Under the pieces are notes generated by a model. That model did no database searches. It was not told where the DNA came from and saw only the letters and a list, made by a program, of their open reading frames with translations. Shown here piece by piece: positions 491-27,642 of a stretch of 33,028 nucleotides of DNA. Source of the stretch: Acidobacteriota bacterium (GTDB lineage Bacteria; Acidobacteriota; UBA6911); contig JAAYAM010000278.1 in assembly GCA_012719355.1 (NCBI GenBank), forward strand, positions 1-33,028, given 5' to 3'. Made by a program: the position numbers and the translations under genes. How positions within the stretch are numbered: the stretch's first letter is position 1; each line of letters begins with the position of its first letter.

Positions 491-3400
491 TTACTCCGTT
501 CCCGGCATCTGGACTGGCGGAACCGCTGAAATGAACCTATCCCCCCGATCAGCGATGATCGCGAAGCTGTGGAGCGGCTGCGTCGAACGCACCCTGATGT
601 TCGCGGTGCGGTGCTGCTGTCCCGGGAAGAGTTCACTTACCTTGGCGATGACGTTGCTTCCGTTGGCGATCGTGATTGTCGCGGTCGACGCCGGAGCGGT
701 ACCGCCGGCCAACGGCCACAATTCAAGGGCGACGGTGGCCTCGGCTCCGCTCGTATTGAGCAGCGACAGTTCTGTTTCGTACGACGCATCTTCGGAAATC
801 AGCGGGTAGACAAAGTCGGTCAGCGGGTGGCCCGAGAGATGAAAGCTTGTCAGGAAGGTGCTGTTCGGGTTCGTGAACGAAACGGTTCCTACGATGAAAT
901 TTTTCGTGCTTGAAACCTCCAGCCATCCGGTCTGGTTGAGCAAAGACGGATCATTCTGGAACAGGTTCCACAGGTTTCCTTTCAATTGGCCGTTCTTCGG
1001 GAGGGTTACCGTCAACGGAGTTCCCATCACAATCCCGTTGGAGGCATGTAGAGTCAGGGTTACTGTCGCCGCATCCCGCTGGTGCGCGTTGATGATGTTG
1101 ACCAGAGTCTGATAGTCCTCAAGGATAGTGAACTGCGGCGAGTAGAGCGTCGATATTCCGGAATGCTTTTCCACGTTGATGGCGTGAAGGGAAGCATCGG
1201 TACCGCCGTTATTGTAGATCTCGGTAGCAAGCACTCCGACATTCGTTTTAATCCTCAAATATCCCTGGTTTGAGCTTACCAGCCCAACCGCGGCGTGCCG
1301 CTGGCGCGATCCGTTCAAGCTGGCGGAGCGTTCGAAGACGCCGGTTATCGGGTTGTAAACTTCGAATGTTCCACTGGTCTCGCTGCCGTTGTTCCCTCCC
1401 GCGATGAGCACTTTGTCCTGGTTGCGGTCTGCCTCATTGATGATCAGGGTCGCGGAATGCCAGACGCGTGCTTCCGACATTTCTCCGTTGGCAAGAACAA
1501 AGCTTCCGGAGACGGGATTGTAGATCTCGGCTAGGTTGGTCGCGCCCGACGAATTCATCCCTCCGGCGATCAGAACTCTCCCGTCGGGAAGCAGCGCTGC
1601 GGAGTGACCGCTGCGCGGTACGACCATTGGAGCGATCGGGATAAAAGATCTGGTTGCCGGGTCGTACAGTTCGGCGGAGTTGAGGTAGGTGCCATTGTAG
1701 CCGCCGGCGATCAGGACCTTTCCGTCCTGCAGCAGGACCGCGGTATGAAAGGCACGGTTCCTCCTCATACTCCCGGTAGCGGTGAAGGTCGAGGTGGCCG
1801 GGTCGAAAGTCTCCGCTGTGGCGGAAATGGAGATGCCGTCGATTCCCCCAGTGATCAGGATCGTTCCGTCAGGAAGCCTGGTCGCGGTATGGGAATCCCG
1901 CGCTGAAGTCATCGGGATGGCTGCCGAGAATCCCCCTGTTGCAGGATCGAAAATCTCGGCTGTGCCGCTTATCGACTGTGCGTTCTGTCCTCCTGCCAAC
2001 AGCACTCGTCCGTCCAGCAGCAAGGTCGCGGTATGCCGGTACCGTTCCGAGTTCATGGTTCCCGGGAGAGTCAAAAAAACTTTATCGATGGGATCATACA
2101 GCTGGGCCGTCTTGAGTACTCCCGATCGATTCTTGCCGCCGGCGACAAGTATCTTCAGGTCGAGCAGCGGAGTTGCAGAAGCGCCCTCGCGCGGCTCGGC
2201 CAGCGAACCGCTTGTGGCCGAAGACGAGGTGCCGTTGCTCACGATCTCTGCGCTGTTCATGATGTCGTTGCCAGATGAGCCGCCCACGAGCAGAATCTGT
2301 CCGGACGCCAGGTCCGAAGAGATGTGTTCTGCTGCACTCTTAGCCTCACGGTTCAGGGGCGACAGCTGAGCAACTGCACTTTCGAGCAGGCTTCCGTCAG
2401 TGCTGTAATGGTTGAGAAGGTAGCTCGACGTGCTGAAATTGGGATTGACTATGGTGATCTCGGCGTTCGATCCGTCCACCATGGAAAGCTCCGGAATGAT
2501 GAAGTCGTGCAGCTGATCCCGGTGATCAGGATAGAACGAAATCCCCTGAAGACTGCTGGTATACGAATTCAGAAACTCGGCACGGACGCGCCCGGTTGCG
2601 CTGAAGGCAGCAACGCTCGGCGTTTCTGCTTCAATTTCCAGACGCCCGGTCCTGTCGGTGAACGAAGAAAAATCGAACAATTGGGCGACGTCCAGCGATT
2701 TCTGTTCATTTGCGTCCAGCGTGAGCTCGGCCGCATTCGGTCGGCCCGAAGCCGAAAATGGACTCCCGTTGTTCTGAAGCGCGGACACCCAGACTGTAGT
2801 GGGGGATGCAGCCAGGTTCAGTATCGAAAGACCTGTGAACTGATCGTTCTCGCTGATGATTTTCGTTTGCCGGAGCAGAGTCGAATCAACAAGAAGATCA
2901 ATCTCGTTGCTCGTGAAGTTCACAACCGCGATACGGATTCCGTCAGGAGTGATGGCGAGGCTTGATGCCTGATCAACATGAAAATTCGGCCGGTCTCCGA
3001 CCACGGTGGCTCCGACGATTTTGTTGCGGACAATGTCGTGCTCGAACAGGAGGTCATCGGTGGATGAAGTGTAGTAAACGTACCTCGGATTTGTGTCGAC
3101 AAATGCGACATTCGAGGAGGGCAGTTGGTTGCTCCTGTAGCTCTGGTGAACCGTCGACACGTTCAAATCCGCGGTGGGGATCAGGGTTGTGGCATTTGTG
3201 GAAAGAATCAACCACTTATCTCCATTGACCGGGTCGCGCAAGAGCGTCGTATAGCCTGGAAGATGTCCAATCTGATGTGTTCCCAGGATCTCTCCCGTCG
3301 CCGGATTGAACACAAAGAGCCCGCTGGTTCTGCTGTCGTCCTCGTGTGTAAAGGTGTCCTGGCTGCCGATTACTCCCAGTGTCCCATCGGCGTTCAACAC

Positions 3401-5119
3401 CGGCTTGTTATAGATCGTGAAGGTGGCAGTCGGATAGATGTCCTGCGGCCTCATTTTGAATTTGGAAGTCATGGATCCGGCGTTTGCGAAAACCACCTCG
3501 TTTGCAGTCGTGTCCACGATCATGAGCGTGTTGCCGTCATTTGTGAGCGTGATCTGGGCAGGCGTGACAAGCCCTCCCAATCTTCCGAGTTCCTGTCCGG
3601 ACGATGTGCTGAATTTGATGACGGTTCCCGTCGCGGTCGACGAGATGTATCCGGTGGTCCGGTCTGGAGAGAGAGTGAGCAAACTGCCGAAACCGAAACC
3701 CGCGTCAAACGCGTACGTCTGCTCAACCGAGAACGTATCCATGTTTACGACGAATATTCTGTTGTCCAAAACTGAAACTGCCGCGAACCTTCCTGCATCG
3801 AGCTGAGTCAGGAAGGCGGGATTGCCGCCCGTCGCGATCCTTTCAATCACCTCTCCGGTCGTGGTCGAGAAAGCCAGAATAACGCCTGATCCGGCATAAG
3901 GGACAAACCCGGTCTGGGAATCTGCTGAGAACAGTATGTTGGGCGCGATATTGTCTGCAGCCATCCGGTAATTGACGTCGAAGGTCAAGAGATCGGCGTT
4001 CCGCCCTCCCGCCAGCAGGACACGGCCGTCGTCAAGCACCGTTCCCGTGTGCAGAAGCCTTGCCGACGCCATTGTTGTCGACAGCGGGGTGAAAGCACCG
4101 TTTGCGAAGACTTCGGCGCTGTTCAGTATTCCGTCCGAAGAGCCTCCGGCCACAAGAACCTTTCCGTTGCTGAGGCTCGCGGTATGGCCTGTGCGCGGGA
4201 CCGTCATGCTCCCCGTTGCCGAAAAGGTTCCGGCAGCGGGATCATAGATCTCGGCGCTGCTCAGCACGGAAGTCGAATTCCTCCCACCGGCGATCAGTAC
4301 TTTTCCGTCCGGCAGCAAAGTCGCGCTGTGGCCGTGTCGTGCTGCTGTCATTGTTCCCGCCGTCGCGGTGAACTGGTTTGTCGCAGGATCGAAAATCTCG
4401 GCCGTGTTCAGGTAATCGCTGCATGATGAAGTGCTGCCTTCGGCGTTTCTACAGCCGCCGGCGATCAGTACTTTCCCGTCGGGGAGCAGGGTTGCGGTGT
4501 GACCTTCCCTCGCTGAAAGCATCGGGCTTGCCAGAAGCGTAAAATCCTGGCTGTTGGGGTTGAAGAGTTCCGCACTGTTGAGGAACCCGCCATTGAATCC
4601 GCCCGTGACCAGGACGGTATTGTTGCTCAGCAGCGTGGCGGTAGCATTCTCCCGGGCGTGATTGAGTCCTTTTACAACCGTAACGGCCTGGCTCGATGGA
4701 TCATAGATGTCCGCGCTGGTGAGATAATTGCCGTCGAAGCCTCCCGCCACCAGAATTGAACCTGTATGGAGTCGGATCGCCAGAGGCCCGGCCTTGTCAC
4801 TGTTCAAAGCCGTTGTCCGGGTAAATCCGTTTTGCGGATCAAACAACTCCGCGGATCTCAAATAACGATTATTGTATCCACCTGCGATATAGACTTTGCC
4901 TCCGGGCAACGGGACGGCAACATGGTGTTCTCTCGCAACCGTCATCGTCCGGGCAACGGGAGTTATGGCGCCGGTCGCCGGATCATAGATATCGGCTGTG
5001 TTGGTTATCACTCCCGCGTTAGGGTTGACGGTCTTGTCGACGCGTTTCTGCGCAAACACGCAGGAGCACCAGAGAAGTAAGGAAATAAAGGAAAGAGTGA
5101 ATACGGACCGGAAACGCAT
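491..5119 (-). CDS. Giant exported Kelch/beta-propeller protein
   Basis: A 1542-residue secreted or surface protein. I chose the ATG at 5119 because GGAGAG lies 7 nt upstream and the protein then opens with a signal peptide (MRFRSVFTLSF..., cleavage near CVFAQ). Residues about 30-390 carry a first set of Kelch repeats, each with a 'LLPDGKVLIAGG'-like strand and a 'SAEIYDPAT'-like strand. Residues about 395-770 resemble a YncE/lactonase-type propeller. A beta-sandwich-like segment follows at about 770-940, then a second Kelch set at about 945-1280. The C-terminus (about 1290-1542) repeats the beta-sandwich type. Kelch propellers usually bind proteins or glycans; the ligand here is unknown. A TATAAT box lies about 140 nt upstream. 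The DUF721-like gene follows with a 4 nt gap. Confidence 0.85.
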   Translation of the reverse strand: MRFRSVFTLSFISLLLWCSCVFAQKRVDKTVNPNAGVITNTADIYDPATGAITPVARTMTVAREHHVAVPLPGGKVYIAGGYNNRYLRSAELFDPQNGFTRTTALNSDKAGPLAIRLHTGSILVAGGFDGNYLTSADIYDPSSQAVTVVKGLNHARENATATLLSNNTVLVTGGFNGGFLNSAELFNPNSQDFTLLASPMLSAREGHTATLLPDGKVLIAGGCRNAEGSTSSCSDYLNTAEIFDPATNQFTATAGTMTAARHGHSATLLPDGKVLIAGGRNSTSVLSSAEIYDPAAGTFSATGSMTVPRTGHTASLSNGKVLVAGGSSDGILNSAEVFANGAFTPLSTTMASARLLHTGTVLDDGRVLLAGGRNADLLTFDVNYRMAADNIAPNILFSADSQTGFVPYAGSGVILAFSTTTGEVIERIATGGNPAFLTQLDAGRFAAVSVLDNRIFVVNMDTFSVEQTYAFDAGFGFGSLLTLSPDRTTGYISSTATGTVIKFSTSSGQELGRLGGLVTPAQITLTNDGNTLMIVDTTANEVVFANAGSMTSKFKMRPQDIYPTATFTIYNKPVLNADGTLGVIGSQDTFTHEDDSRTSGLFVFNPATGEILGTHQIGHLPGYTTLLRDPVNGDKWLILSTNATTLIPTADLNVSTVHQSYRSNQLPSSNVAFVDTNPRYVYYTSSTDDLLFEHDIVRNKIVGATVVGDRPNFHVDQASSLAITPDGIRIAVVNFTSNEIDLLVDSTLLRQTKIISENDQFTGLSILNLAASPTTVWVSALQNNGSPFSASGRPNAAELTLDANEQKSLDVAQLFDFSSFTDRTGRLEIEAETPSVAAFSATGRVRAEFLNSYTSSLQGISFYPDHRDQLHDFIIPELSMVDGSNAEITIVNPNFSTSSYLLNHYSTDGSLLESAVAQLSPLNREAKSAAEHISSDLASGQILLVGGSSGNDIMNSAEIVSNGTSSSATSGSLAEPREGASATPLLDLKILVAGGKNRSGVLKTAQLYDPIDKVFLTLPGTMNSERYRHTATLLLDGRVLLAGGQNAQSISGTAEIFDPATGGFSAAIPMTSARDSHTATRLPDGTILITGGIDGISISATAETFDPATSTFTATGSMRRNRAFHTAVLLQDGKVLIAGGYNGTYLNSAELYDPATRSFIPIAPMVVPRSGHSAALLPDGRVLIAGGMNSSGATNLAEIYNPVSGSFVLANGEMSEARVWHSATLIINEADRNQDKVLIAGGNNGSETSGTFEVYNPITGVFERSASLNGSRQRHAAVGLVSSNQGYLRIKTNVGVLATEIYNNGGTDASLHAINVEKHSGISTLYSPQFTILEDYQTLVNIINAHQRDAATVTLTLHASNGIVMGTPLTVTLPKNGQLKGNLWNLFQNDPSLLNQTGWLEVSSTKNFIVGTVSFTNPNSTFLTSFHLSGHPLTDFVYPLISEDASYETELSLLNTSGAEATVALELWPLAGGTAPASTATITIANGSNVIAKVSELFPGQQHRTANIRVRSTQPLHSFAIIADRGDRFISAVPPVQMPGTE
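1560..4560. repeat. Diverged tandem Kelch-coding repeats
   Basis: The DNA repeats a unit of roughly 150-160 bp in two blocks. The core 'ccggcgatcag.ac.tt.ccgtc' recurs near 1575, 1703, 4289 and 4455, with weaker copies between. Each copy encodes the DGKVLIAGG strand of one Kelch blade. The blocks (about 0.95-2.3 kb and 3.9-4.95 kb) are separated by the non-Kelch propeller. Such repeats can recombine or mis-assemble. Confidence 0.6.
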
Positions 5120-5543
5120 ATGACTCTCCATGAAACAGCACCGCATAAGAGCAGCGGCCGATTATTAAGTCCGGGATCCGGGTTGACGAAAGAACAGCCA
5201 CAGATTTCCCAAGATTTGAGACTGAGCTATCTCAATCATTTTTCAAAATCGCGGCTCATTATATACGAATAGGCCGAAAATGAATGAAAAAGGTGATGTG
5301 GAGCCTTGACTCCTTTTTTAAGGCGGACACCTCGCTGCTATCGACAAAAGATCCCGGTTGGTGTAAGAATGTCCAACGCATCTCGTCAGTTTAAGACGAG
5401 TGTGCTTGTTCGCTCGCCCGCATCCGCCGAATTCAGAAGCAGGTCGGTGAGAATCGTGGGCCAGGGACTGTCGTTGATCACATGTTTCTGCTCTGCGCAC
5501 GCCGCGACAGTGCCTGAATGAAGAACACTTGAGGAGGTGTGGA
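5120..5543. other. 424 bp divergent intergenic region
   Basis: This region separates the Kelch gene from the Oar-like receptor and should hold both promoters. On the minus strand there is a good TATAAT (5258-5263). On the plus strand I see no convincing -35/-10 pair. A small hairpin, CTCGTC (5382-5387) with GACGAG (5395-5400), lies in the likely leader of the receptor. No known riboswitch consensus was recognised. Confidence 0.5.
5258..5263 (-). promoter_or_regulatory. Candidate -10 box for the Kelch gene
   Basis: The minus strand reads TATAAT within GTATATAATG, about 140 nt before the Kelch start. The matching -35 is poor (TTCATT-like at 19 nt), so this is a sequence-based guess. Confidence 0.35.
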
Positions 5544-20774: not shown

Positions 20775-23123
20775 TCAGAAGTGGTAGCGGACCTTCATAT
20801 ACCAGGTACGTCCGGGCTCCGGGAAGCCTTCCTGGTAATAGTAGTTGGAATCGAAGAGATTGCTGACGCCGGCCTGAATTGCGGCTCCTTCGCCCAAGGG
20901 GGCGATCAGACCCACATCCGCAGTGACGAAATTCGATGCAGGAACTATCGTACCTGCATCGTTGGTCGTGACGGTTCCGTGTTCGTGCCTGATAGTAGTC
21001 AGTAATGTTGATTTCCAGGGGAGCCTGACATTGGCCACGGCAACGACTTTGTGTTTAGGCGCGCGGACCGGATGCACGCCCGGCACACTCTGAACAGGGG
21101 GTATCGTCCACTTCAGGAAGCTGTAGTTGGCATTCAGGGAGAGGCGCGAAAGAGGTGTGCTGCGCAGTGTGAGTTCAAATCCCTGATGGACTTCTCTGCC
21201 GATATTGACAGACTGCTGACACATTCCGTCCCCCATCGACGGGCACTGATTCTCATATTCGGCCGGTATGACGGCATTCTGGATCGCATCATAGACATCG
21301 CTGCGGAAAAGCTCCGCCTGCAGGACTGTGTTGAGCCCGAAGGCTTGCGAATACCCCAGCGTCCAGTTTCGCGCGTGTTCCGGTTGTAATGCAGGGTTCG
21401 GAATCGCCCGCCCATACCGGTAGGAGTACCGGTCCTTCAAAGTCGGAAAGTGGCTCTTTTGCGTGACTGCAAAGAACAGGGAGCCGGTGTCCGACAAAGA
21501 GTAGGAAAACGACGCCAGCGGATTGTAATCCCATACCCGAACAAGGCACGACCCGGCCTCCCCGCATCCGAAAGGCTCTACTGAGTAGCGTGTTACGGAA
21601 TTCCTTCCCTCTCCGGCAACCGTCGTCTTCAGATCTTGGGCTTCGAGGGCATCGAGCAGGTCTGCACTCAGCCCGACCGTCGCGCGCATCCGCGAGGAAA
21701 CGGTAATGACATCCTGAAAGCCGATTGAGATCATCCTGTCGTGGTGAGTGCGCCACGGCTCCGTGACTGCGCCGCCTTTCGAGAACGTGGTCTTGCTTTC
21801 CTTGTGAATGTCATCCTTGATGAAGAACGATACGCCGATGGAATGGCGGGCTAATCGCCGGGTCGAGAATTCGGCCGAAGCTCCGACAGAATGATCGTCG
21901 TATGGATTGACGCTGGCGAGACTCGAATAGGTCTCATCGGTGAATCCGGTCATGTTGTTGCGAAAGCGGTCGTAGTACGCACGGAATCTGAGTGACTGCA
22001 TTCCACCCAGGCCGGTGCTGGAATTGAAATAGTACATTTCCTTATTCCAATAGGGCCAGCGCCAGAACTTGGGCTTGTTGTGCTCGACGTCCTGCCCGGA
22101 ATACGGCGGGGTTCCATAGTCTGATTTCTGATTGGAATAGGAGACGACGTACTGATGAAGGTTTCGCGGCGTCCAGCCCACGCGTCCGCTATAGCTTGCG
22201 TCACGACGATCGGAATTCGTGCGGTTGAAGCCGGGCTGGAGCCGGTTTGTGATGAATTCGCCTGACAGAGGGTAGTGATCGGTTTGCCGCCAGTCAACAC
22301 CAGCCTGGAGGAAAAAACGTTGCCATCTCGAGCCGAGGTGCAAACTAGATTCCAATCCGTTGCCTGAACCGGTGCCGATTGCGGCGTCGGCATCTAATCT
22401 CTTTTCCGGCAGGCGCGTGACGAGATTTACGGCGCCGCCCAGACCGTTCGGTCCGCGCAGCGGGGAAGAATAACCTTTTGCGACTTCGATTTCACTGAAA
22501 GTGCCGGTCAAGAAACGGCTGACATCGACAAAGCCGTCAAAGGGTACGTAGACTGGAATGCCGTCAACATAAAGACCGACCTGGCGGGTGTCGAATCCGC
22601 GGACCATGATTCCTGACTGCCCCCGCGCAGAATTGTGATCTATCCCGATGCCCGGCAGGTATCGGACCGACTCCCCGATATCAGGCATATGAAGATCTTC
22701 AATTTCCGAGTGGTGGATAGTGGCGGCTACAGGCGACAATGGCGAAATCTCCGCCGTCACACTGATTTCCGTGACGCCCAGTTCAAAAGGACGCCCGTTG
22801 TCCTGCCGTGAAAGCGCTGCCACGGTTTCTCGTAATGCGGTGATCAGGCTGCGTGTCTGTTCAGCAGTCCAGGGTTGCGGAGGGACCGGAGGGAGCTCGA
22901 CCGTAGATCGCGGGTGAAGCCTTATCCAGAATCCGACCTCCGTGAGGATATGCGCAATTCCGGTGCGTTGTTCCTCCAGTGCTGCCGACTGAAGATACGC
23001 GAGTTCCGTGTGCCATCCATTGAGATGCCTGCTTTGTGCCTTTGAAGCAGGAGTCCCGGATATCAGAACCAGGAGGAAAAGAGCGGTTGCAGATGAAGTG
23101 CGCTGAATCCTGATCGAAAGCAT
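20775..23123 (-). CDS. TonB-dependent receptor, linked to the TupA-like gene
   Basis: A 782-residue outer-membrane receptor. A signal peptide (ending SKAQS) is followed by an unusual 80-90 residue segment (helical, rich in Q, E and L), a TonB-box-like stretch ('VTEISVTAEI', about 120) and a plug domain (about 135-245; 'GIMVRGFDTRQVGLYVDGIPVYV', 'GPNGLGGAVNLVTR'). A 22-strand-type barrel ends in MKVRYHF. Two close Cys pairs in predicted surface loops ('CGEAGSC', 'CPSMGDGMC') suggest disulfides. It is smaller than the Oar-type receptors and closer to siderophore/metal receptors. The start lies 24 nt after the TupA-like stop, with AGGAGG 11 nt before the ATG, so the two are one operon. The substrate may be the oxyanion or a complex of it. 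Confidence 0.9.
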   Translation of the reverse strand: MLSIRIQRTSSATALFLLVLISGTPASKAQSRHLNGWHTELAYLQSAALEEQRTGIAHILTEVGFWIRLHPRSTVELPPVPPQPWTAEQTRSLITALRETVAALSRQDNGRPFELGVTEISVTAEISPLSPVAATIHHSEIEDLHMPDIGESVRYLPGIGIDHNSARGQSGIMVRGFDTRQVGLYVDGIPVYVPFDGFVDVSRFLTGTFSEIEVAKGYSSPLRGPNGLGGAVNLVTRLPEKRLDADAAIGTGSGNGLESSLHLGSRWQRFFLQAGVDWRQTDHYPLSGEFITNRLQPGFNRTNSDRRDASYSGRVGWTPRNLHQYVVSYSNQKSDYGTPPYSGQDVEHNKPKFWRWPYWNKEMYYFNSSTGLGGMQSLRFRAYYDRFRNNMTGFTDETYSSLASVNPYDDHSVGASAEFSTRRLARHSIGVSFFIKDDIHKESKTTFSKGGAVTEPWRTHHDRMISIGFQDVITVSSRMRATVGLSADLLDALEAQDLKTTVAGEGRNSVTRYSVEPFGCGEAGSCLVRVWDYNPLASFSYSLSDTGSLFFAVTQKSHFPTLKDRYSYRYGRAIPNPALQPEHARNWTLGYSQAFGLNTVLQAELFRSDVYDAIQNAVIPAEYENQCPSMGDGMCQQSVNIGREVHQGFELTLRSTPLSRLSLNANYSFLKWTIPPVQSVPGVHPVRAPKHKVVAVANVRLPWKSTLLTTIRHEHGTVTTNDAGTIVPASNFVTADVGLIAPLGEGAAIQAGVSNLFDSNYYYQEGFPEPGRTWYMKVRYHF

Positions 23124-23147: not shown

Positions 23148-23999
23148 TTACCGATTGTTGAAGTTTCTTACCGGGATGAAGATCGGTATTCCATCACCAA
23201 GTCCTCCGTCGTAGGTCGCAAGGAACCGTTGGATTTTCTCCGACAGAAGGAAATCGGAAAGCTTCCGCGCTCCTTCTATATTGACCGAGGGGAATCTTTC
23301 AGGATTTGCCACCATCGCCACATAGGGGCGGCGCATGACCGGATCCCCCTGAACCATGATTTTGACGCCAGGACTGGGCTGCATTTTGTTGAACATTATC
23401 GGGATCCTGCCGACGATCATGTAGGCGTTGCTGGCACCGACATAATGGAGAATTCCTTTTGTATCGGTGTTCTCGTACTTGAGCACCCAGGCGCCGATCA
23501 TGTGCACGCCGGCTCTGTGAAACAGCGTATGCGCCGTCTCCCTCGGTCCGTTTGATTGAAAATCGAGCCAGTTTGCTCCTGATGCCGCGATCTTCCTGAC
23601 AGCTGCGGTGCCGTCCTTCATGCCCGATATCCCGGCGGGATCATCGGCCGGGCCCACGATAACCAGATCGTTTTTCGCCCAGGGCCGCAGATCGATTGCC
23701 CATCCGTCGGCTACCAGATTGGTAGTCGCATCACTTGAGTGCATCGTCAGGAAATCAACTCTCCCCTCCTGCATGGCGCGGGCGAGAATAGGCTTCGCCC
23801 CGGTTACCACCACCTCTGTCTTGATTCCGGTCTCCTTCTGGAACCGTCTGTCGATCTCGTTCCAGAGAGGGGTCATGGTCATACCTCCGATAACCGCCAC
23901 CCGGACAGGTTTGGAGCCCCCTTCGACGCCGTGAACTGCGAAGAGAATCATCGAAAGGACTGCTGCGATTGAGGCCGTCTTCATAATCAGGTGCTTCAT
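23148..23999 (-). CDS. Exported oxyanion-binding protein, TupA-like (PBP-like)
   Basis: A 283-residue periplasmic binding protein. After a signal peptide (residues about 1-28, cleavage near EGG) come the fold features of TupA/WtpA tungstate-binding proteins: 'ETGIKTEVVVTGAKPIL', 'GRVDFLTMHS', 'KNDLVIVGPADDPAGISGMKDG', 'AVRKIAASGANW', 'HYVGASNAYMIVGR' and 'KLSDFLLSEKIQRFLA'. The TTTS oxyanion loop of reference TupA is replaced by GGMTMT, so the ligand may differ (tungstate, molybdate, or selenium or sulfur oxyanions). I chose ATG 23999 because AAGGAA lies about 8 nt upstream. No ABC permease or ATPase lies in the window. It follows the exported selenoprotein on the same strand with a 345 nt gap. 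Confidence 0.75.
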   Translation of the reverse strand: MKHLIMKTASIAAVLSMILFAVHGVEGGSKPVRVAVIGGMTMTPLWNEIDRRFQKETGIKTEVVVTGAKPILARAMQEGRVDFLTMHSSDATTNLVADGWAIDLRPWAKNDLVIVGPADDPAGISGMKDGTAAVRKIAASGANWLDFQSNGPRETAHTLFHRAGVHMIGAWVLKYENTDTKGILHYVGASNAYMIVGRIPIMFNKMQPSPGVKIMVQGDPVMRRPYVAMVANPERFPSVNIEGARKLSDFLLSEKIQRFLATYDGGLGDGIPIFIPVRNFNNR

Positions 24000-24344
24000 G
24001 CCGGGTTTCCTTTCTATGTAATTCGGACAGGACAAACGTTATGCAATAGAGACGTCGTTTATAACATACAATATGAAGGTATACACAACAGAATTTTGCC
24101 GCCGCTCCCGGTACCGGCATCACAGGTGAAATCTGCCGGGAGAGGGGTCAGATGCTCGCACTTGAATTGTGAATACAATGGGCGGGTATGACCGTGCGCG
24201 AGTCAATATCGGGGCGGAAGACCGGCTTGACCGGGATCGCGCACAACTGCAGTGCCTCGCGGTCCCGGATTACGGCAGAGTTCCGGCAGGAGCGGCGACG
24301 TTTTCTGTGCTGAAGGTCGGCCGCTCCTGTTGTTTCGTCGTCAC
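24000..24344. other. 345 bp structured intergenic region between the selenoprotein and TupA-like genes
   Basis: No real gene is seen. It holds (a) CTCCCGG (24105-24111) paired with CCGGGAG (24136-24142), with an overlapping alternative CCGGCA/TGCCGG stem enclosing TCAC-AG-GTGA, and (b) GTTAT/ATAAC half-sites (24038-24042 and 24061-24065) 18 nt apart, reminiscent of ModE boxes but with a longer spacer. TupA-like transcription probably starts near 24060-24090. I did not match a Moco, cobalamin or other known riboswitch. Confidence 0.45.
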
Positions 24345-26108
24345 CTATCTCCATTCATCGATCAGGATTCCCCGGCCGAACCGGAAATCGGTGACGAACC
24401 AGGTGGTCTGAATATTACCGCCTGTGATGATGACATTAATTGTCCTCGGATTGGTGAATGGTTTGAGCAGCGTGTCAGGCGGCAGGTCTTTCCATGCCGC
24501 ATAGGGCGCGAGTCCCTGAAGCGCCAACGGCATCATAGCGGTGGTATTCACACCGTTTCCCCAGTAAGTACCGGCGGCCACTTCCACGTTCTGCGCCAAC
24601 CATTCGGCGAGTTGCGCTTTTGTCTTGAATCCGTGCGCGTCTTTGAGCAGGGCGGCCACCGTCGGATCCATTATGATTGTCGCGGCCATGCCGGTGAGCG
24701 AACGCATGTAGTCCCGGAACATCATGTGGGGAGGATGCTTGATCTGCGCTTCTCCCACGCTCGAGATATAGCTCCAGCCGCTCCCTATGCTTACGACATT
24801 GTCGGTACGCTTGAATCCCATCTGCACGCTGATCGGATCCCATCCTTCAGGCAGCAGTTCCTCATTCTCGGCGAAGCAGAGATTGTTGTACTGCAGATTG
24901 CTTCCGAGTGAGGAGTACGCGCCGGCACCCAGACGGACGTCTCCGATAATCTTGCCCGCCAGCGTAAATGATCTGCCGATGACCGAGTTGGCTTCGGCGA
25001 AAGGACCAAGGGCATCCATTCCTGAGTTCATGCCGATCTCTTTGCGCACCGGACCGTTCACGACAATCATATTGGCCGCCGAACTGGTTGAGTTCCCGAA
25101 TGAAGATGCCTGTGTAAGCACTGCGAGGATGGTCGGGAAGTATTCCACCCTGGCTCCCGCCATCACTGCAATGACCGCGGCTTTCTCCACGGTCATTTCC
25201 CGGGTCGTGCCGAAGTATCGGCACACCACCTCATCGGGCTTGCGGCTCGTTCCTTTGAGCATTTCGGCCACAAGCTTCTCGGTAGGAAGTATGATCGGAT
25301 TGAAGTCGGTCCATTCCTTGTCCTTAAACAGGCGGTGCAGGTTCGCCTCGGTGTCCGGCTTCAACAATCGTGGTTCCGGGGTATAGCCTGAAGGCATGCC
25401 GCTTTTCTTCTCTTCGTCGGTCAGGGGCAGCGTCAAAGCATCGAGGATTGCCTTCATCATGGGTTTGCCGCTCAGCAGATCCTTTCCCTCGACATAGCTC
25501 TTGTGCACGGATCTCGGCTGGCCCGCCACAGGAAAAGGGAAGGCGACATAGCGAATCGGCATCCCGTTTCCGTAGAGGAGATCATAATCCTTGAACTTGA
25601 CGACGTTGACGCCGGAAGCGCCCACGGTAGGAATCTTGTGTTGCAGTTCGATGTTCCGGGCAAATCGGCTCACGGCCGATACGCAGCCGTGTCAGCCGCC
25701 TATCCCGATCACGACCCCGCCGGCGTTCCCGGCTGCAATCTCCTTCCTGAGCGCTTCATCATCGCCTGAAAAGGGGCCGCCGCTGATCCTGCGGATCTCC
25801 GTTTTTACCGAAGGCATGTTCTTGGCAAACCAAGCCTGCATTTCTTCAAAAACACTGTAGGCCGCCTCCGGGCCGCCCCATTGCATATCAACCAGAAACA
25901 ACGTTTTCCCTTCCAGTGTGTCGATGCGCGGACCGAGAGGAACCCGTTCCACGAATCTCGTCGACATCGCGGGGCTCATGACATTACTCAGCAGTGCCTC
26001 ACGAGCTTCTCCGATATCGGGTTTGCCTGTTGCCGGTGACATACCCCCGATCGAGATCAGAGCGGCCACCGAAAGCAGAACGCTTCCAAGCAGGACTTTT
26101 CCCTTCAT
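24345..26108 (-). CDS. Exported UGSC/GrdB-like selenoprotein, in-frame UGA at 25694-25692
   Basis: A 587-residue protein whose frame is broken once, by TGA at codon 139. The halves are in the same frame, and the second has no ribosome-binding site or plausible start. Read through, the site is 'GIGG-Sec-HGC' (U139, C142), a U-x-x-C redox motif at the position where UGSC-family proteins and GrdB place Sec or Cys. Residues 1-22 form a signal peptide or N-anchor (MKGKVLLGSVLLSVAAL...), so it acts outside the cytoplasm. The first domain (about 45-185; 'PRIDTLEGKTLFLVDM', 'ELQHKIPTVGAS') and the second ('GTSRKPDEVV', 'VEKAAVIAVMAGARVEYFP', 'VNGPVRKEIGMNSG', 'CFAENEE') match the UGSC family in order. 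The true stop is TAG (24347-24345). ATG 26108 has GGAGG 5 nt upstream. Its substrate is unknown. Confidence 0.88.
25660..25694 (-). promoter_or_regulatory. Sec UGA and bSECIS-like hairpin of the UHGC selenoprotein
   Basis: Downstream of UGA (25694-25692), ATCGGC (25680-25675) pairs with GCCGAT (25669-25664) around loop CGTGA. Below a U-U mismatch the stem continues with G-U, C-G and G-C pairs (25682-25684 with 25662-25660). Loop G25673 is 21 nt from the U of UGA, as in known bacterial SECIS elements such as that of fdhF. Confidence 0.75.
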
Positions 26109-26156
26109 GTCTTCCTCCCCAGCTGGTCATAAGTGAATTCCAATGAAGTGGTCTGA

Positions 26157-26305: not shown

Positions 26306-26488
26306 ATGGCGAAGGCTGCAGCCAAGACGAAAGCTAAAGAGAAACCTGCAAACAGAGCCAAAGCACCGGCCAGCGAAAAACGCGAGTATAAGACCCCTGA
26401 ATCGGCAGCAAAACAGAAGCTTCAGTGGGAGAGCAAGGGATACAAGGTCACACGCAGGGGGAACATACTGCACATCAAGAAGGGTTAA
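26306..26488 (+). CDS. 60-residue lysine-rich basic protein
   Basis: A small protein: an Ala/Lys tail (MAKAAAKTKAKEKPANRAKA) followed by a short folded-looking part ('EYKTPESAAKQKLQWESKGYKVTRRGNILHIKKG'). AGGAGG lies 7 nt before the ATG and a hairpin terminator follows 25 nt after the stop, so it is a real free-standing gene. The tail resembles those of histone-H1-like nucleoid proteins. I do not recognise the family; DNA or RNA binding is inference from charge. It is divergent from the selenoprotein gene, with 197 nt between them. Confidence 0.75.
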   Translation: MAKAAAKTKAKEKPANRAKAPASEKREYKTPESAAKQKLQWESKGYKVTRRGNILHIKKG

Positions 26489-26607: not shown

Positions 26608-27642
26608 TCATTCGAACTTCAGCTGCCGTGAGAAGAAGCTCATAACATTGTTCTGAAAGCGGGAAGCGACCCGATTCCCGTGATCACCCTCGTACTCTTC
26701 GAAAACATGCGGAACGCCGAGGCGATTCAGTTCACCGTGAAGCTCGACGTTCATAGCTCTCAGAAAATCCTTGTCTCCCACATCCATTACAATAGCCCTG
26801 TACCGCTTCAGACTCGAAACGTATTGACTGGCCATTGCCAGCGGTGAGTTGGCCGCATACTTGGCGGCAACCAGCGGCTGGATCTCGCCGTCCTTTGTAG
26901 GCAGATCGAAATAATCCGGAGGATTGGCAGGATTTGGCGCCCATGCTGCAGCCTGCGCCTGCGCGACTTTCGCAAATGGATTCGGTTTGCCTTCCGGGGC
27001 GGGGGCGGGAGCATCTTCTGACGGAGCCTCCTTGCGGACGGGCGGCAGGCTTACTGTGTTCATCAGACAGCACGAACTCATCGCATAGAGCGCGGAAAAG
27101 ACTTCCGGATACTTCATTCCGATCCTCACGGTACCGTAGCCGCCCATTGAATGTCCGGAGAGCCCGCGGCTGTCCCTGTGCGCCAGCGTACGGTAGTTGC
27201 TGTCGATATAGGCGACAAGGTCACGGGCGATGAAACCTTCCCAGTCTCCGGTTGTCGGAGAATTGGAGTACATGCTCCCGTTGTAAACGGTGTGAGCGTC
27301 CGGGAGTACAATGATCATCTCCTTCGTTCCCGCTGCGATGACGTCATCCGCCGTTTTGGGCAGATTCAGAAGGTTGACATAGGCATCGACGTTGATGCCG
27401 TATCCGTGGAGGAAGTAAACGACCGGATACCGCTTCGCCGGCGACGTGCGATAGCTGGGAGGGAGATAGATAACAACATCCCTGTCGGGACTGTCCCCCT
27501 CGAGATTCCCTTCGAGAGAAGTGCCATGCACCTTGATCCGTTCGATGGTTCCGTCATTCTGTTCTGCCGCAGGGACAATCGCCACGGCGGTGAAAAGGGT
27601 GAATAGTACGACTGCGAAAAAACCTGTTCTGGCTGATTTCAT
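26608..27642 (-). CDS. Exported esterase, alpha/beta hydrolase (esterase D family)
   Basis: A 344-residue protein with a signal peptide (ending IVPAAE). The esterase fold shows 'YFLHGYG' as oxyanion part, the nucleophile S165 in 'LSGHSMGGYG', an acid in 'DVGDKD' (288-290) and the catalytic H319 in 'EGDHGN'. A Pro/Ala-rich insert (about 200-240) forms a lid-like segment. Family members hydrolyse esters of sugars, feruloyl groups, mycolyl esters or S-formylglutathione; the secreted form suggests extracellular ester substrates. ATG 27642 has GGAG about 8 nt upstream. The LolA-like gene lies 142 nt upstream on the same strand. Confidence 0.88.
   Translation of the reverse strand: MKSARTGFFAVVLFTLFTAVAIVPAAEQNDGTIERIKVHGTSLEGNLEGDSPDRDVVIYLPPSYRTSPAKRYPVVYFLHGYGINVDAYVNLLNLPKTADDVIAAGTKEMIIVLPDAHTVYNGSMYSNSPTTGDWEGFIARDLVAYIDSNYRTLAHRDSRGLSGHSMGGYGTVRIGMKYPEVFSALYAMSSCCLMNTVSLPPVRKEAPSEDAPAPAPEGKPNPFAKVAQAQAAAWAPNPANPPDYFDLPTKDGEIQPLVAAKYAANSPLAMASQYVSSLKRYRAIVMDVGDKDFLRAMNVELHGELNRLGVPHVFEEYEGDHGNRVASRFQNNVMSFFSRQLKFE

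Follow-up and report, generated by a model that had tools for sequence, protein, structure and literature searches.

A UGA-interrupted reading frame in an Acidobacteriota genome as a probable selenoprotein gene of an expanded, mostly exported UGSC family

We analyzed a 33,028-nucleotide stretch of DNA from an Acidobacteriota bacterium (contig JAAYAM010000278.1 of assembly GCA_012719355.1; hereafter, the window), in which the minus-strand frame 24345-26108 is, judged by comparison with its homologues, almost certainly a genuine selenoprotein gene. The larger finding is the family, since the window gene appears to be one of an expanded set of mostly exported selenoenzymes in its genus. Our preferred reading of the product, to which we assign a probability of about 0.6, is an exported selenol-dependent reductase fed by a thiol relay, with the C-terminal domain as its substrate side.

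Reading frame and selenocysteine codon

The two ORFs called on the minus strand (25692-26108, 138 aa; 24345-25673, 442 aa) form a single frame whose sole break is a TGA at 25694-25692. From its ATG start to its TAG end, the fused frame is open except at this codon 139, which lies in the motif G-G-U139-H-G-C142. The features of the gene are as follows.

24345..26108, minus strand: whole predicted selenoprotein gene, encoding 587 aa before the stop (one frame whose only TGA is shared by 140 homologues)
26113..26118, minus strand: ribosome-binding site GGAGGA, 4 nt before the ATG (from the sequence)
26025..26108, minus strand: predicted signal peptide, residues 1-28 (KGK, hydrophobic core, A-T-G end; by inspection of the sequence, with most paralogues likewise)
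25512..25982, minus strand: UGSC-family domain (PF24696), residues 43-199, alpha/beta Rossmann-like (18.2 bits; matched by 44 of 44 members; AF2 model and structure comparison)
25692..25694, minus strand: UGA codon 139, predicted selenocysteine (UGA column in homologues; Cys at the same place in Neorhizobium)
25683..25685, minus strand: Cys142, second residue of the U-x-x-C pair and presumably its resolving cysteine (kept in every Sec member)
25664..25680, minus strand: bSECIS-like hairpin core with a 6-bp stem and loop CGTGA (TCGGC-CGTGA-GCCGA; pairing and covariation across paralogues)
24348..25463, minus strand: C-terminal domain, residues 216-587, outside any Pfam family, probably 'Unknown_1' (standalone or Trx/AhpC-fused in other bacteria)

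The sequence at the downstream GTG (25673), the likely gene-caller start of the second ORF, contains no ribosome-binding site. The signal peptide is clear by eye (MKGKVLLGSVLLSVAALISIGGMSPATG), and the AF2 model has a pLDDT below 50 across residues 1-26.

A homologue search in 60 relatives gave 11-25 matches in each of ten genomes of the genus, and about 150 were taken for comparison; nearly all matches in the genus contain exactly one internal TGA. The UGA occupies the identical column in 140 of the 158 distinct aligned homologues and is always followed by x-x-C, with motif variants in the genus family that include UHGC, UDGC, USSC, and UWGC among others. The remaining 18 rows carry S, G, N, T, A, L, or C at this column; the only C comes from a Clostridiales paralogue that lacks the motif, and the one Leu row (CTG) retains the second Cys. 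No genus member in the 158-row alignment has Cys at the Sec column. Genomes G004, G007, and G008 have clusters of paralogues (L158, L161, L163, L164, L092) whose Sec position is occupied by Ser, Gly, Asn, Ala, or Thr. The scaffold thus survives where Ser, Gly, Asn, or Thr replaces Sec, and it may therefore have an additional, non-redox role.

Sec/Cys pairing among homologues is a standard criterion for a selenoprotein, and Cys forms were found in more distant organisms. Neorhizobium galegae encodes a full-length fused homologue (39% identity over 576 columns) with CSTC exactly at Sec139, the haloarchaeon Halostagnicola has split genes of the Cys form (CGSC), and Variovorax has Cys forms as fused or split genes. 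These Cys relatives, carried on plasmids in all three and on pHAMBI540a in N. galegae, resemble the window protein in both domains, encoded as fused or neighbouring genes, and have C-x-x-C at the column. They differ from it in having Cys for Sec, in showing no expansion in those records, and in sometimes having a thioredoxin reductase gene nearby; the Neorhizobium homologue also lacks the signal peptide. In N. galegae VafX2 (CP090555.1, 7902-9570; L231), a frame change has led to annotation of the Cys homologue as a pair of hypothetical proteins; in strain HAMBI 540 (L235), it is intact. A further fused homologue with Met at the Sec column lies on a Sporomusa termitida plasmid (5383-7107; L234), near aconitase X/DUF126 and adjoining an FAD-dependent oxidoreductase.

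The window is a whole contig (C222) of the source genome (G000), which comprises 4.57 Mb in 377 contigs and is rated 100% complete and 4.2% contaminated. This genome has the entire selenocysteine machinery: a tRNA-Sec whose anticodon is UCA (68.7 bits; gathering score 47) and, all over their cut-offs, SelA (555 bits), SelB (398 bits), and SelD (366 bits). SelD of the source genome is itself predicted to be a selenoprotein, with one in-frame TGA (G000:C126:9885-10814, L172).

The hairpin lies 14-30 nt past the first nucleotide of the UGA. By itself it has an unremarkable folding energy (z = -0.9), and single hairpins of the family gave a weak energy signal against shuffles (mean z -1.0), so a covariation test was used in its place. 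The core was paired in 91%, 95%, and 84% of cases in three subfamily groups, with 17, 5, and 10 two-sided changes, respectively, whereas controls with the partner strand slid gave 6-77% pairing and 0-8 two-sided changes. Stems also scored higher at the hairpin position than in windows placed elsewhere in these genes (mean 15.4 versus 10.7). The loops contain GU (CGTGA, GGTC, GTC, AGTT), and the GU-bearing loop stands about 20-27 nt from the UGA start. In the subgroup with the canonical UGSC motif, no clear hairpin was seen, and an Rfam search of the stretch reached no SECIS family.

Comparison of the window gene with five orthologues revealed purifying selection on both sides of the UGA, with dN of 0.20-0.31 upstream and 0.12-0.18 downstream and dS above 1. 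Since 140 distinct homologues keep the UGA at this column and the orthologues share the fused frame under purifying selection, the UGA does not stand there by chance. These observations, together with the Sec machinery and the Cys homologues, argue for a genuine selenoprotein. The competing view that the UGA is a true stop, or that the locus is a pseudogene or a sequencing error, would agree with the ordinary stability of the window hairpin alone and with the two ORFs that gene callers would give; it is refuted, on the available sequences, by the conserved UGA column, the complete machinery, the Cys homologues, and the selection on both sides, with the missing downstream ribosome-binding site also against it, and we give it a negligible probability. 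The original prediction of one frame split only by TGA, at the exact Sec/Cys position of the UGSC family and followed by U-x-x-C and a bSECIS-like hairpin, with a downstream part devoid of a ribosome-binding site, is thereby corroborated: the frame is conserved in orthologues, the UGA column coincides with the Neorhizobium CSTC, U-x-x-C occurs throughout the Sec homologues, and the stem is 84-95% paired and covaries across paralogues.

Family, expansion, and export in the genus

Assignment to the UGSC family, also part of the original prediction, rests on a diverse alignment (A1), in which PF24696 (Pfam UGSC) was matched by 44 of 44 members at E <= 0.01 (best 8e-29) and NF041046 (NCBIfam) by 42 of 44. 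The window protein alone falls below the PF24696 cut-off (18.2 versus 25 bits), while many genus members exceed it. The further suggestion of a GrdB-like protein found no support in sequence, and a GrdB origin was dropped: PF07355 had no match at E <= 0.01 among the 44 members and none in the source genome (control genomes were likewise empty), and the window motif UHGCVSA lacks the third Cys of UxxCxxC. One of the 44 members matches the sarcosine GrdF model NF040794 at E 0.0014. GrdB and PrdB, the beta subunits of glycine/sarcosine/betaine/proline reductases, share with the window protein Sec in U-x-x-C, and they are substrate-binding reductases fed by the thioredoxin system, the same working that we propose here. 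In contrast to them, the window protein has a signal peptide for export and no UxxCxxC.

Passages of a 2026 review (PMC13188914) count the UGSC family among selenoproteins of largely uncharacterized function, and available portions of the UGSC literature mention neither export nor expansion. In the 2008 survey of ocean metagenomes, the Sec form outnumbered the Cys form 255 to 21, fusion to a second domain, 'Unknown_1', was reported, and a thioredoxin fold was guessed for UGSC (Zhang and Gladyshev, 2008; PMC2398784). That family has the same redox domain as the window protein, Sec or Cys in U-x-x-C, and a bSECIS-like element; the proteins described here differ in that the fused form is exported, encoded by 10-19 genes per genome, and varied in motif.

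The C-terminal 370 residues match no Pfam family and, likened by description, are probably 'Unknown_1'. This domain has many residues that are invariant among members and no conserved Cys. The AF2 models are good (pLDDT 89 for the Sec domain and 91.5 for the C-terminal domain), and neither domain has a specific structural match. The best neighbours of the Sec domain are Rossmann-like or receiver-type (Z about 8-10), with no thioredoxin fold among the neighbours listed. Class I fumarase headed the Foldseek list for the C-terminal domain, but only at TM <= 0.2 (VIA Z <= 4.5), so the domain has no confident fold match; a sequence search of solved structures found no relative.

A selenoprotein family is, as a rule, represented by only one or a few genes in a genome. 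In seven genomes of this genus, we counted 10-19 UGSC-domain genes each, nearly all with Sec, and the source genome alone has 12 Sec genes of this single family plus one copy truncated at a contig end. By comparison, the largest bacterial selenoproteomes named in accessible parts of the literature comprise 57 and 63 genes. A tree of 139 rows resolved about ten subfamilies, and most genus genomes are represented in each; therefore, the duplications are older than the species. One clade of 113 rows is wholly Sec, and the non-Sec rows of the tree need three changes. Gene callers that read UGA as a stop would report nearly all UGSC genes of the genus as two fragments and so overlook more than 100 predicted selenoproteins across ten species. 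When the DNA of the compared loci was scanned for other selenoproteins, the hits were mostly antisense or out-of-frame shadows of the UGSC family.

A simple hydrophobicity rule assigned a signal-peptide-like N-terminus to about 102 of 137 members and scored about 35 as negative. Export had been predicted to be rare for the UGSC family, which seems true outside the genus, but within the genus it is the rule. Sec enzymes can work in the periplasm, as do the extracytoplasmic formate dehydrogenase N and [NiFeSe] hydrogenase; these are metalloenzymes, whereas the window protein has only the selenol-thiol pair and no metal-site motif was seen in it. Among 396 Acidobacteriota genomes, the fused Sec form was confined to the genus, apart from a single genome of a sister genus. 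A further 28 Acidobacteriota genomes had a match, of which 22 list a separate UGSC gene with an in-frame UGA, an unfused form unlike the window protein. This Sec-only record of the genus, together with the split outgroup forms and the cultured Cys relatives (Neorhizobium, Variovorax), makes UGSC function testable with common laboratory strains.

Two orthologous, lipoprotein-like UGSC paralogues from two species carry UGA-UGA (L166 in G007:C289 and L167 in G009:C14) within the motif G-F-G-G-U-U-G-C (UUGC; codons L167:2480-2485, minus strand). They are 89% identical, with 109 synonymous versus 51 non-synonymous differing codons, and both have a 7-bp hairpin downstream, which could possibly serve two adjacent selenocysteines. 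No other UGA-UGA copy was found in the 396 Acidobacteriota genomes, nor did a search mostly outside the subscription literature turn up a published account of neighbouring selenocysteines in a bacterial protein or one on UGSC function.

Genomic context and proposed mechanism

In outgroups, a standalone UGSC gene adjoins a gene that combines the C-terminal domain with either a DCPTC Trx-like domain or an AhpC/TSA domain, and in Variovorax, the gene cluster of the Cys forms includes thioredoxin-reductase-type genes (CATC and CTAC motifs). The UGSC and C-terminal domains may therefore constitute a two-part enzyme fed by the thioredoxin system. Outside the genus, the two domains often occur as separate cytosolic proteins, and these, with their Trx/AhpC-like fusion or nearby thioredoxin reductase, suggest a reductase fed by a thiol relay that was moved outside the cytoplasm in the genus. 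The source genome has one DsbD gene; DsbD is widespread, so its presence proves little.

In the proposed mechanism, SelB, tRNA-Sec, and the adjacent downstream hairpin would direct the ribosome to decode UGA 139 as selenocysteine, and the signal peptide would then take the whole protein of 587 residues over the inner membrane. Once exported, the UGSC domain would hold its selenol-thiol pair, Sec139 and Cys142, next to the C-terminal domain, the most likely site of substrate binding. There, Sec139 would reduce or reductively cleave the bound substrate and form a Se-S bridge with Cys142, to be reopened by a thiol-disulfide relay, probably a DsbD-type system for the window protein and the fused Trx/AhpC-like domain or an operon-encoded thioredoxin reductase in the cytosolic relatives. 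In the genus, the Trx part would have been lost and the fusion exported, and DsbD could pass electrons outward. The dozen or so genes per genome, in old subfamilies, would each be specialised for different substrates. We infer the reductase chemistry, the relay used, the substrate role of the C-terminal domain, and the specialisation. A reductase acting outside the cytoplasm, if true, would be a new use of selenium.

Two other functions were weighed against this mechanism. The selenol might trap a metal or metalloid (mercury, arsenic, selenium) or scavenge peroxide outside the cell, the product being a detoxification or storage protein rather than a substrate-specific reductase. U-x-x-C is a good site for soft metals and peroxide, the partner domain is fused to AhpC/TSA in some relatives, and several selenoprotein families are named as metal-binding or organometallic in passages of the 2026 review (PMC13188914). 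Nevertheless, the conserved 370-residue second domain with its many invariant residues and the about ten diverged subfamilies look like substrate specialisation, and the neighbourhood of the window gene showed no genes for metal resistance; we consider this function unlikely. Still less probable, in our estimate, is a cell-envelope thiol-disulfide (selenenyl) exchange protein like DsbA, TlpA, or DsbG that repairs or isomerises protein disulfides, with paralogues for different clients. The export signal, the U-x-x-C motif, the DsbD of the genome, and the Trx-like partner domain of relatives are consistent with such a helper, but the structural neighbours listed for the Sec domain include no thioredoxin fold, and the cytosolic relatives sit among metabolic genes (aldehyde dehydrogenase, organic-acid transport proteins). 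Moreover, we know of no protein-disulfide helpers expanded to 10-19 per genome.

Building on the relay-fed reductase, we tentatively propose a wider scenario, which we hold to be possible rather than probable. The genus would have taken a cytosolic two-part UGSC reductase, fused, exported, and multiplied it, with Sec in every redox-competent copy. The resulting selenol chemistry, not yet described, would act outside the cytoplasm on many organic substrates ahead of their uptake; it would be coupled to co-expanded aldehyde ferredoxin oxidoreductases, and one branch would have two adjacent selenocysteines.

The genes next to the window gene are as follows.

20775..23123, minus strand: TonB-dependent receptor
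23148..24035, minus strand: extracellular solute-binding protein (SBP_bac_11), possibly in the same transcription unit as the window gene
26608..27642, minus strand: exported esterase (PF00756)

The orthologues of the window gene in three sister genomes adjoin a tannase/feruloyl-esterase-like gene instead of the PF00756 esterase, and neighbours differ from one UGSC paralogue to another. Aldehyde ferredoxin oxidoreductase is encoded by 8-19 genes per genome in the source genome and six other genomes of the genus. Twelve such genes lie within 6 kb of a UGSC gene, compared to 4.0 expected, with orthologous loci counted repeatedly, and the association is only a lead. The same applies to the substrate: the tannase/feruloyl-esterase-like, esterase, solute-binding protein, and TonB receptor neighbours and the aldehyde ferredoxin oxidoreductase co-expansion are leads. 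Some of the aldehyde ferredoxin oxidoreductase genes near UGSC genes are accompanied by a Tat-signal ferredoxin-like gene (L079, L081, L085). Elsewhere in the window, a small divergent ORF on the plus strand (26306-26485), below the length needed to enter the ORF list, encodes a Lys/Ala-rich product of 60 aa (MAKAAAKTKAKEKPANRAKAP...) behind a good ribosome-binding site, and a 1551-aa protein made largely of Kelch-type repeats is encoded at 491-5146 on the minus strand.
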